From contig CAIOLW010000157.1 in assembly GCA_903859215.1 (NCBI GenBank), positions 1-58,371 of the forward strand: a DNA stretch of 58,371 bases, given 5' to 3'. This stretch comes from an uncultured bacterium (GTDB taxonomy: Bacteria > Krumholzibacteriota > Krumholzibacteriia > LZORAL124-64-63). The notes beneath the pieces were generated by a model. The model made no database searches and had not been told where the DNA came from. It was given only the letters and a program-made list of their open reading frames with translations. Below are positions 29,550 to 33,298 of this stretch, in pieces; the first letter of the stretch is position 1, and each line of letters begins with the position of its first letter. A program made the translations under genes and the position numbers.

Positions 29550-30131
29550 CTAACGGAACAGGCTCTTGACGTTGCCGAACGAGGTAGCCTCGTCAGCCAC
29601 GACGCAGTTGGCATTGTTGACGGTCGCCACCGGCAGCAGGACGCTACCGGAAGCAACGCCGCAACGACGCAGGGTGCCGTCGCCCGTGACAACCGGCAGA
29701 CCACCGGTCATCGAGGGGATGGAAGCCTTGTCGATCCTGAACGCCATGTCGCCGGGGCCCGTCATCATGTAGCTCCAGGTCACCAGGGTGAGGCCACCGT
29801 TGGCAACCGGGTAGTTCGCAGCGGCGCCCACGGCAAAGCCGTTCGGCGACGCGTCGACGTCCAGCGCGCCCGTGCCCGCCAGGGTCGTCGACAGAGCGAA
29901 GTTCGGAGCGGTACCCGACGCGACAACCGTGCACTCGAAACCGTTCGTGGGGCCGGCCGGGTTCATCAGAACCAGGTAGACGTTGAACGGCTGGTACAGG
30001 CCGCCGGTGAAACAATTGTTGCTGTTGCCAGCATCGAAGTAGACACCGAACGAGTCGGTATCCGAATCGTGAACAGCAAACGCCGCCGTAGCCATGAGGC
30101 TGACGATCAGCAGTGCTACCAACTTCTTCAT
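29550..30131 (-). CDS. Small secreted protein, paralogue of the gene at 28467-29105
   Basis: 193 aa, function unknown. GAGGAGA lies 8 nt before the ATG at 30131; a longer reading from 30206 would start inside the upstream hairpin region and is not credible. Signal peptide: MKKLVALLIVSLMATAAFA. Mature motifs parallel those of the neighbour: FNVYLVLMNPAGPTNGFECTV, TGALDVDASPNGFAVG, LTLVTWSYMM, ASIPSMTGGLPVV and C-terminal DEATSFGNVKSLFR. Several Cys pairs (for example NCFTGG, RRCGVAS, NANCVV) may form disulfides outside the cytoplasm. Its own strong terminator follows. No separate promoter is evident, so it may depend on read-through from the dockerin-like gene. Confidence 0.75.
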   Translation of the reverse strand: MKKLVALLIVSLMATAAFAVHDSDTDSFGVYFDAGNSNNCFTGGLYQPFNVYLVLMNPAGPTNGFECTVVASGTAPNFALSTTLAGTGALDVDASPNGFAVGAAANYPVANGGLTLVTWSYMMTGPGDMAFRIDKASIPSMTGGLPVVTGDGTLRRCGVASGSVLLPVATVNNANCVVADEATSFGNVKSLFR

Positions 30132-30206
30132 TGTGGTTGTCTCCTCAAACCGCAGGAGTTGTGTCACGTCAGACCGCTGTGCATCAAAATCGGGCGATCT
30201 TAACAC

Positions 30207-30336: not shown

Positions 30337-30978
30337 CTACGGGCAAACCGCGCCCACGCCCGAGGCCAGGCGGGGGATATCGGACACGTTCACGACGCCA
30401 TCGAACAGCAGGTCCGACCGGAAGGTCGTCGAGCCGTAATCGGCGGCGAACAGCGGAATGTCCGACAGATTGGCAACGCCGTCACCGTTGATGTCGGCGC
30501 TGTTGTGGCGCAGATTCAGACCGGCATTGCTGGTCAGGGCCGCACCGTTGATGACAACCAGGGTGTTGGACGTCGACCAGCCACCAGCGCGCAGCGGGGC
30601 GGCCCAGCTGGTCACGCCCGCGTTGCTGGTGTTCACGTCGGCAGTCGTGCCACCGGTGCAGGCAATGAAATTGCCCGTGCCGGCAACGACGGCCTTCTGC
30701 AGCCACATGTCAGCAGCCGAGAAGTTCGCCACAGCAACGCCGCCGCCATCGAGGACGGTCAGGGTGATCGTCGCGTTCACGACACCGCTGGTCGCACGAG
30801 CCTGGGCAAAGGTCGCGCCAAGGCCGTTCGGCAGGTTGTACATGACCGGACTCACACCAGCGCCGGCCGCGGTGCTCGCGGTCGAGAGCTGCAGATCCGG
30901 GACACCAGCGACAGCAAACGTAGCCGCGCCGATGACCAGAGCGATCGAGAAGACTCCCGTGAGTTTCCTAAGAACCAT
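30337..30978 (-). CDS. Secreted protein with C-terminal dockerin-like calcium repeats
   Basis: 213 aa. GGAGGTG lies 5-7 nt before the ATG; an N-terminal signal peptide (core FSIALVIGAATFAVA) is clear. Residues about 25-155 are a beta-rich domain with no recognised family (NATITLTVLDGGGVAV resembles an Ig/cohesin-like strand pattern). The C-terminal 54 residues hold two dockerin type I-like segments: ADINGDGVANLSDIPLF, with complete DXNXDGXXNXXD ligands, and LLFDGVVNVSDIPRLA, where the first Asp ligands are degraded. Dockerins bind cohesins or stabilise surface proteins through Ca2+. No cohesin is recognised in the window, although the N-terminal domain deserves that comparison. Confidence 0.75.
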   Translation of the reverse strand: MVLRKLTGVFSIALVIGAATFAVAGVPDLQLSTASTAAGAGVSPVMYNLPNGLGATFAQARATSGVVNATITLTVLDGGGVAVANFSAADMWLQKAVVAGTGNFIACTGGTTADVNTSNAGVTSWAAPLRAGGWSTSNTLVVINGAALTSNAGLNLRHNSADINGDGVANLSDIPLFAADYGSTTFRSDLLFDGVVNVSDIPRLASGVGAVCP

Positions 30979-31331: not shown

Positions 31332-31408
31332 TGGTGGGCGAAACAGGACTCGAACCTGTGACTTCCTGCGTGTAAAGCAGGCGTTCTAACCAACTGAACT
31401 ATTCGCCC
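31332..31408 (-). tRNA. tRNA-Val (anticodon TAC)
   Basis: A 77-nt cloverleaf: acceptor GGGCGAA/TTCGCCC, D-arm GTTCAGTTGGTTAGAAC, anticodon loop TTTACAC (TAC), T-loop GTTCGAGTC, A discriminator and encoded CCA. Its first ten bases overlap the end of the small membrane protein gene upstream. Confidence 0.95.
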
Positions 31409-31575
31409 ACGTTTCGACGGAAGGAACGCCAGAGAAAGAACGGCAGCAGGACGCAGTAGCCGGTCACCAGCAGGATCGGCCCCAGCGACAGGCTGCGGAA
31501 ATACAGCAGCACGAAACCCAGCGCGATCGCGGCCAGCGCCGCCCACAGCAACCAGAACCTGCGCAGGATGTCCAT
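31399..31575 (-). CDS. Small (58 aa) membrane protein overlapping tRNA-Val
   Basis: The ATG at 31575 has AAGGA 6 nt upstream. The product has two hydrophobic helices (about residues 8-27, WLLWAALAAIALGFVLLYF, and 31-49, LGPILLVTGYCVLLPFFLW) with basic flanks and ends SFRRNVGE. The TAG stop is formed by bases 8-10 of tRNA-Val. A promoter lies 60 nt upstream. No family is recognised. Size and layout fit a two-helix small membrane protein; it is unlikely to be spurious given the ribosome-binding site and helices. Confidence 0.65.
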   Translation of the reverse strand: MDILRRFWLLWAALAAIALGFVLLYFRSLSLGPILLVTGYCVLLPFFLWRSFRRNVGE

Positions 31576-31634
31576 CAGCGTTCCTTTCCACCGGCGGCAG
31601 CCGTGACGGCGCTTCACGCGCCGCACCGGGACGC

Positions 31635-31664
31635 AAGATAGCGCGGCCGACCCGGCATCGTCAA
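31635..31664 (-). promoter_or_regulatory. Promoter for small membrane protein and tRNA-Val
   Basis: On the minus strand TTGACG (31664-31659), 18-nt spacer, TATCTT (31640-31635). It lies downstream of the mltG stop and about 60 nt upstream of the small ORF, which continues into tRNA-Val without a gap. Confidence 0.6.
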
Positions 31665-31709: not shown

Positions 31710-32816
31710 TCAGCGGCGCGAAATGGCCGTCGCCTCCCGCCGTGCGTGATAACGCTGCACCGCAGCGTCATGCTCGGCCGCCGTCAGGCTGAACACGTGG
31801 CCACCGGTCCCGTCGGCGACGAAGAACATCGCACGGCAGGCGGGATCCGGGCGCGCCGCCGCCTGCAACGACGCCAGGCCGGGGCTGCCGATCGGTCCGG
31901 GCGGCAACCCTGTTGTGCGGTAGGTGTTCCACGCCGAGGGGCATTCCAGGTCCCGGAACAGCAACCGCTGCCCCTTCTTACCCAGCGCGTAGGCCACGGT
32001 CGGATCGGCCGCCAGGCTCCAGCCCAGGCGCAGCCGGTTCAGGTAGACCGCCGAGACACGCGCGCGCTCGTCCTGCCGGCCGGTTTCCGCCTCGATGATC
32101 GACGCGAGGGTCAGCAGTTCGTGCGCCGACAAGCCCGCCGCCGCCGGCGAGCGCGGGCCCTTCAGCACCGAGTCCAGTCGTTCGAACTGGGCGTCGACCA
32201 GGCGACGAGCCGCCTGAGCGGGCTCGGTGTCCTCGTCGAAGAAATACGTGTCGGGAGCCAGGTAACCCTCGCAACTTGGGATCGTGTGGCCGGCCAGCAC
32301 GGCCTCGGACACCAGACCGCTTTCGAGGCGGGCAAAGGCAGCCGCGCCGGCGCGGTCGCCGCGGTCGCGCCACACCTGGCCCACCGCGCGGTTGGCTGCG
32401 TCCAGGAACGCCACCTCGTCGACGTGCAGGGCCCCGGCCAGCAGCCGCGCCGTCTGGCCGGCGTCCAGTCCTTCGGGGATCGTCACGCGCACCGGCGGCA
32501 GGCCCGGCTTCGTGAACAGTGACAGCAGGTCGCGCACCGGCAGGCCCGGCGCCACGTTGAACAGCCCCACCTGCAGCCGGCCGCTCTGGCCGCCCAGGCG
32601 GGCGCCGACCACCAGCACCGACGGGTGCCGGAGGAGCCCGCGCGCCGACAACGTGTCCGCCAGCGCCACCATCGACATGCCCGAGTGCACCCGCACCCGC
32701 TGGGAAACATAGCGCGGGCCCACCGGCCAGCGCTGGTTCCACTGCTGCCACGACCAGCCGAGGGCTGCCGAGAGCAACAGCAGCGCGCAGCCGCCGGCCA
32801 CCAGGAAGCGCTTCAC
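31710..32816 (-). CDS. mltG: Endolytic murein transglycosylase MltG (YceG family)
   Basis: Inner-membrane enzyme that cleaves nascent glycan strands and ends their polymerisation. 368 aa from a GTG overlapping the ruvX stop (GTGA). One N-terminal membrane anchor (FLVAGGCALLLLSAALGW), a LysM-like segment (VRVHSGMSMVALADTLSARG), then the YceG catalytic domain with EGYLAPDTYFF, LASIIEAETG (catalytic Glu) and a C-terminal DPTVAYALG...SAWNTYRTTGLPPGPIGSPG. These are the defining family motifs. Confidence 0.94.
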   Translation of the reverse strand: MKRFLVAGGCALLLLSAALGWSWQQWNQRWPVGPRYVSQRVRVHSGMSMVALADTLSARGLLRHPSVLVVGARLGGQSGRLQVGLFNVAPGLPVRDLLSLFTKPGLPPVRVTIPEGLDAGQTARLLAGALHVDEVAFLDAANRAVGQVWRDRGDRAGAAAFARLESGLVSEAVLAGHTIPSCEGYLAPDTYFFDEDTEPAQAARRLVDAQFERLDSVLKGPRSPAAAGLSAHELLTLASIIEAETGRQDERARVSAVYLNRLRLGWSLAADPTVAYALGKKGQRLLFRDLECPSAWNTYRTTGLPPGPIGSPGLASLQAAARPDPACRAMFFVADGTGGHVFSLTAAEHDAAVQRYHARREATAISRR

Positions 32817-33298
32817 GCGGCGCCCCCGTCGTCCCCGGGACCGGCCTCGCGGGCCGCATCGGCCGCGCGGACCAGGTCGGCCTTCCGGCGATCGAGCCAC
32901 CCCTGCAGGATCAACTCGGCGGCGACCGCATCCCGCTCGCCCTTCGCGCGATCGACCTTGCCCCGGCCGCTGCGCGGCGCCAGGAAGCGGTCGGCCTCCT
33001 GGCTCGTGTAGCGCTCGTCCCACATCTGCACCGGTACCGGCAGCACCTCGGCCAGGCGGTCGGCGAAACGGCGCGCCCGCACCGCGGACTCGCCCTCCCG
33101 CCCGTCGGCGGTCAGGGGCAGGCCGACGATCACGGCCTCGGCTCCGCGCTCGGCGACCAGCCGCGCCAGCAGATCGAGCAGCGAGCCGTCACGTCCTTCG
33201 ACATGGGTTTCCAGCGCGAACGCAAACGCCGCGTCGGGATCGCTGACGGCGATCCCGACGCGGCGCGTGCCGTGGTCGATGCCCAGGAACACGGGCAC
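32813..33298 (-). CDS. ruvX: Holliday junction resolvase-like pre-16S rRNA nuclease (YqgF)
   Basis: Family of RNase H-fold nucleases acting in 16S rRNA 5' maturation. About 161 aa from the GTG at 33298 (another GTG at 33292). Motifs: LGIDHGTRRVGIAVSDP (catalytic Asp), VIVGLPLTADGREG, MWDERYTSQEAD and the C-terminal KGERDAVAAELILQGWLD with the second catalytic Asp. Starts 4 nt after the stop of the anti-sigma-like gene; upstream in-frame codons would overlap that gene and are not conserved. The ruvX-mltG order is widely conserved. Confidence 0.93.
   Translation of the reverse strand: MPVFLGIDHGTRRVGIAVSDPDAAFAFALETHVEGRDGSLLDLLARLVAERGAEAVIVGLPLTADGREGESAVRARRFADRLAEVLPVPVQMWDERYTSQEADRFLAPRSGRGKVDRAKGERDAVAAELILQGWLDRRKADLVRAADAAREAGPGDDGGAA

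Follow-up and report, generated by a model that had tools for sequence, protein, structure and literature searches.

The gene for a small two-helix membrane protein and the gene for tRNA-Val(UAC) are neighbors in many bacteria that are only distantly related, and the production of the tRNA and of the protein therefore looks tied together. In the stretch of DNA analyzed here (58,371 nucleotides from an uncultured member of the Krumholzibacteriota, hereafter the window), the two genes overlap by ten bases. We think it probable that they form a dedicated mRNA–tRNA unit, in which the protein would stop on bases T8A9G10 of the tRNA and the RNase P cut would leave the message without a stop codon.

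Anatomy of the Gene Pair

The two genes and the elements that surround them on the minus strand are as follows.

31399..31575, minus strand: ORF for a two-helix membrane protein, 58 aa plus stop (MDILRR...SFRRNVGE), supported by homologues, purifying selection, and a two-helix model
31332..31408, minus strand: tRNA-Val, anticodon TAC, CCA encoded, supported by RF00005 and the anticodon call
31399..31408, minus strand: ten-base overlap, in which the last base of codon 56, codons 57–58, and TAG are tRNA bases 1–10
31399..31401, minus strand: TAG stop codon, identical with T8, A9, and G10 of the tRNA
31408..31409, minus strand: predicted site of RNase P cleavage, separating 31409 from 31408, placed from the tRNA 5' end
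31635..31664, minus strand: putative sigma70-like promoter, TTGACG-N18-TATCTT, conserved 5' of the ORF in relatives
31581..31587, minus strand: Shine–Dalgarno-like AAAGGAA ahead of the ATG, recognized from its sequence
31710..33023, minus strand: upstream YceG/MltG-like gene (PF02618), given for context and not the neighbor everywhere

The initial annotation of this DNA described a 58-aa ORF ending at a TAG formed by tRNA-Val bases 8–10 and sharing ten bases with the 5' region of the tRNA, and the coordinates bear out both the stop (31401–31399) and the shared segment (31399–31408). The ORF begins with ATG and comprises 58 codons plus the stop (31575..31399, minus strand); its final sense codons read GTG GGC GAA, with tRNA base 1 in the third position of GTG, and its last two residues (GE) are coded entirely within tRNA-Val. 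The base at position -1 of the tRNA is T. The tRNA scores 76.2 bits against Rfam RF00005, with a cloverleaf that passes the cut-off and the anticodon TAC. As in overlapping pairs of the selB–selC type, the ORF lies on the same strand as the tRNA and has its stop codon inside it. The proposal that RNase P cleavage removes the stop codon likewise agrees with the anatomy, given a cut at tRNA base 1 and a stop at bases 8–10; the message would then break off two bases into codon 56. The window also contains a tmRNA gene. Two secreted-looking proteins without a Pfam match are encoded at positions 29550–30206 and 30337–30978 (minus strand), the latter ending in a stretch that by eye resembles an EF-hand or dockerin; at one related locus (L022) a gene resembling the latter seemingly lies 3' of the tRNA.

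Overlaps with tRNA Genes in a Single Genome

The genome assembly (G000; 4.33 Mb in 391 contigs) has 42 RF00005 matches, and tRNA-Val(TAC) is a single copy among the tRNA genes read. By eye, TAG stands at bases 8–10 in 28 of 37 tRNA copies and TGA in one of the 37, and any in-phase frame entering a tRNA with TAG at these bases therefore finishes at that codon. Among ATG ORFs of 50 codons or more, one further case does so, a 68-codon frame before tRNA-Arg(TCT), which we rejected as apparently spurious given that its translation crosses an upstream tRNA-Pro. Seen in one genome alone, the overlap could be a product of chance; we rate it above chance because of its conservation across relatives.

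Conservation of the ORF and the Pair within the Phylum

A protein search of 80 genomes of the phylum (E 0.01) returned 61 places and placed the ORF family in 59 of the genomes, and a profile search placed it in 61 of the 80, two of them weakly. One place (L067, E 0.0097), a fragment that lacks a tRNA, was dropped, leaving 60 confident loci. Values of dN/dS lie between 0.047 and 0.540 in ten of eleven sequence pairs, with eight below 0.23, and the eleventh pair (L023–L024) is saturated. Lack of conservation, named in the initial annotation as grounds for abandoning its reading, was thus looked for, and the ORF proved to be conserved. Judged by these comparisons, the ORF is a genuine gene that is conserved and under purifying selection. 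The contrary idea, that an open frame enters the tRNA by chance, can appeal to the high G+C content, which gives long chance ORFs, and to such frames at other tRNAs of the same genome; it is extremely improbable in our estimation, given the occurrence of the family in 59 of 80 genomes within the phylum and 46 of 209 beyond it, the low dN/dS, and a confident two-helix model, and we rejected a chance ORF on conservation and dN/dS.

tRNA-Val(TAC) is the next gene downstream on the same strand in all 60 confident loci, and 59 of them have no more than 18 nt between stop and tRNA, overlaps counted in. This linkage was judged on genomes with a confident ORF, a base outside which 21 of the 80 fall, and many of the genomes compared are fragmentary assemblies. 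The position of the stop is less constant: it coincides with T8A9G10 in 41 of the 60 loci, lies at tRNA bases 21–23 in one (L035), and falls 1–43 nt before the tRNA in 18. Conservation in relatives, proposed earlier as a check on the overlap, therefore holds for the pair (60 of 60) but not for the overlap, which is variable (41 of 60), and we reject the overlap as a universal rule given the 18 loci that do without it. A homologue of the YceG/MltG gene of the window is found upstream in 40 of 61 phylum loci, several loci having little upstream sequence.

In the 21 phylum genomes without a confident ORF, tRNA-Val(TAC) was not found either, by BLAST, by two pattern searches, or by ARAGORN, which was run on the BLAST and first-pattern loci; the hits of the second pattern all had one mismatch. 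The tRNA is likely absent from those 21 assemblies. Its apparent absence, for example from the single-contig G075, is odd for a tRNA that is expected to be essential. Another genome (G004) carries two family loci, L051 and L062, each overlapping a tRNA-Val(TAC); the two resemble different families and would reflect either a mixed bin or a true second copy.

The Pair beyond the Phylum

Profile A1, run at E 0.001 against 209 genomes from outside the phylum, found the ORF family in 46 of them, at 47 places; 40 of these were read, seven of the weaker being left out. tRNA-Val(TAC) lies at most 170 nt downstream in 28 of the 40 loci, tRNA-Asp(GTC) is next instead of tRNA-Val in three, and nine have neither within 400 nt. 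Eighteen of the 40 have a tRNA-Asp within 500 nt downstream. The stop is T8A9G10 in eight of the 40, all among the 28 linked to tRNA-Val and belonging to families f142, f159, f125, f180, f111, f182, f9, and f160 (outside lineages are counted by family codes, not phyla); it lies at tRNA bases 21–23 in two further loci (f76) and ahead of the tRNA, with a gap of 0–170 nt, in 18 of the 28. The gene pairing is thus more widespread than the overlap. Ten outside upstream proteins were scanned and gave YceG (two), Asn_synthase (two), periplasmic binding protein (two), ACR_tran, DHO_dh, and no match (two). Given that the upstream neighbor changes while tRNA-Val stays, the lasting association of the ORF is with the tRNA. 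In L116, L139, and L150, the ORF is followed by tRNA-Asp(GTC) and tRNA-Val is missing, an arrangement that suggests an older ORF–Val–Asp array from which Val has been lost.

The Protein Product

The 58-aa protein does not reach the cut-off of any Pfam or NCBIfam family, and no match in either collection ties it to tRNA or translation. The nearest family is DUF3098 (PF11297), to which the protein scores 13.6 bits, below the gathering cut-off of 25. Of 29 phylum members, 23 match DUF3098 only weakly (best E 0.0024); two homologues found outside the phylum with profile A1 (L139 and L145) pass the cut-off with 31.0 and 28.1 bits, and five further outside members score 16.1–24.2 bits. The window protein is therefore homologous to DUF3098 via intermediates, and the two share a similar size and two hydrophobic segments, although the window protein itself falls below the Pfam cut-off. 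An AlphaFold model (mean pLDDT 85.9) has helices at residues 2–25 and 31–55, with residues 56–58 outside the helices; a structure search gave no PDB match at E <0.001, the best starting from E 6.6. The link to tRNA-Val is the best lead to the function of the protein, and the pair connects a DUF3098-like protein to tRNA supply.

Transcription Signals

Promoters were scanned as matches to the sigma70 consensus, scored out of 12 and compared with shuffled sequence, in the 59 phylum loci with enough sequence; the scan covered 140 nt upstream of the ORF and, as the inside region, the ORF start up to the tRNA, with the ORF start set at a fixed distance from the stop. Upstream of the ORF, 54 of 59 loci reach a score of at least 8 (6.9 expected) and 41 reach at least 9 (2.3 expected). 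From the ORF start to the tRNA there is no excess, with at least 8 in eight of 59 loci (9.0 expected) and at least 9 in one (2.0 expected). Outside the phylum the signal is weaker, a score of at least 8 being found upstream in 26 of 40 loci and inside in 12 of 40. Strict terminator-like hairpins at most 130 nt after the tRNA are few, occurring in five of 59 loci, with 0.1 expected.

The upstream excess, combined with the chance level inside, favors one promoter and a joint transcript, and from these signals the ORF and the tRNA look like a single mRNA–tRNA transcription unit. We rejected a separate tRNA promoter inside the ORF, given that the scan up to the tRNA start stays at chance level. 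Such a promoter belongs to the view that two independently expressed genes drifted together and that their overlap is inconsequential. The frequency of TAG at bases 8–10 (28 of 37 tRNA copies), which makes an overlap cost-free, and the gain and loss of the overlap among relatives speak for this neutral packing; it is nonetheless very unlikely in view of promoter-like sites that are far above chance before the ORF and at chance up to the tRNA, and of a pair that outlives turnover of the upstream gene.

Why the Stop Lies inside the tRNA

The tail between a conserved proline and the T8A9G10 stop measures 7, 9, 12, 13, 14, 15, 16, 17, 19, or 21 residues depending on the lineage, and the core tree, which is poorly resolved and built on few columns, implies that the overlap was gained or lost at least 13 times. 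At L018 of genome G052 (oriented tRNA at 1688), the ORF ends in SVGR and a TGA that precedes the tRNA by 10 nt, and the DNA at this stop resembles a tRNA 5' end; the locus looks like a recent loss of the overlap, as though the ORF and the tRNA had been parted by a short insertion or a partial duplication. The variable tails and the loss at L018 indicate that the residues coded by the tRNA are dispensable. Among lineages with a stop inside the tRNA (counted by family codes in a hand tally), 12 of 14 use the T8A9G10 phase and not bases 21–23 or read-through, a bias with a binomial probability of 8e-5 against 1/3 and 0.006 against 1/2 for lineages that may not be independent. This bias is suggestive of a preference, and selection for the earliest stop fits it equally. 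Position -1 is occupied by T in 27 of the 41 overlapping phylum loci, by A in nine, and by G in five.

Proposed Mechanism

We propose that a sigma70-type promoter about 60 bases 5' of the ATG would yield a transcript with the protein first and the tRNA second, and that the protein would be translated from the unprocessed, probably nascent, transcript, with T8-A9-G10 of the tRNA serving as a ready-made stop codon. The 5' ends of bacterial tRNAs are made by RNase P. Here its subsequent cut at tRNA base 1 would mature the tRNA and in the same act strip the message of its stop, of codons 57–58, and of the final base of codon 56. The cut message could not be finished and would be expected to enter nonstop decay, and a ribosome stuck on it would be expected to be rescued by tmRNA; each transcript would thus give a tRNA plus any protein completed before cleavage. 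Because the cut should fall two bases into a codon and leave the message without a stop, a cut molecule could not afterwards yield both products. The mutual exclusivity suggested in the initial annotation would accordingly apply after cleavage but not before it, where translation during transcription could come first. Its shared transcript is consistent with the upstream promoter-like site, but a stop ahead of the tRNA, seen in 18 of the 60 phylum loci and in 18 of the 28 linked outside loci, speaks against an essential switch.

A regulated switch would have ribosome traffic and RNase P compete for the ten bases, with the overlap kept by selection and the ratio of protein to tRNA set by translation load or by the supply of tRNA-Val or RNase P. 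Recurrence of the T8A9G10 stop with tails of 7–21 residues and in eight outside families, the repeated state changes (at least 13, on the poorly resolved tree), and the shared phase of 12 of 14 lineages are in keeping with such a switch. Yet the loci that stop before the tRNA lack the overlap, T8A9G10 is the earliest stop on entering a tRNA so that selection for a short tail explains the bias, the lineages are possibly not independent, and no regulator or sensor was seen; we therefore hold a regulated switch to be rather unlikely. At the 18 non-overlapping phylum loci the cut would spare the stop, and stop loss is thus not required for the pair. Within the mRNA–tRNA unit that we favor, the stop inside the tRNA is most plausibly a convenience of close spacing that has been used time and again, and not a required switch. 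In a bolder extension, the pair would be an old one shared among many bacterial lineages, the membrane-protein message would be the sole source of tRNA-Val(UAC), and competition between ribosome and RNase P over the shared bases would set the ratio of the products, tying membrane state to tRNA supply; this strikes us as distinctly unlikely.

It is unusual for a single-copy tRNA to depend, as this one appears to, on a promoter that drives a membrane-protein message. The natural series of stops, at bases 8–10, at bases 21–23, or 0–170 nt before the tRNA, suits tests of competition between ribosome and RNase P. Gene callers that forbid overlaps with tRNAs may miss the ORF.

Comparison with Known Systems

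Our literature search found no paper on the ORF–tRNA-Val pair, subscription journals and preprints being mostly outside its coverage. The closest precedent is selB–selC (Mukai 2021, PMC8124441), in which tRNA-Sec is nested in or overlaps the SelB gene; some Dyella and Luteibacter selB stop codons lie inside the tRNA at bases 46–48, in some relatives the stop precedes the tRNA, and tRNA processing is proposed to give a nonstop mRNA, making the products alternatives. The systems are alike in that a bacterial protein gene enters a same-strand tRNA and that both have non-overlapping relatives. They differ in that SelB is the partner of its tRNA, whereas here a seemingly unrelated small membrane protein is joined to an elongator tRNA-Val, with the stop at bases 8–10 and the pair present in many families outside the phylum of the window.

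The secG–leuU mRNA–tRNA transcript of Escherichia coli, reportedly described by Mohanty and Kushner in 2008 (cited in PMC3985628), resembles the proposed unit in that a membrane-protein gene precedes a tRNA and RNase P processes the joint transcript; we know of no stop-codon overlap in that case. In animal mitochondria, tRNAs punctuate the transcripts, genes and tRNAs overlap, and tRNA excision sets the mRNA ends. The overlaps and, as proposed here, an mRNA end set by excision are the features shared with the present pair; the differences are the organelle setting, extreme compaction, another kind of RNase P, and stop codons completed by polyadenylation. The cox1 gene of Armadillidium is the mitochondrial overlap cited in PMC8124441.
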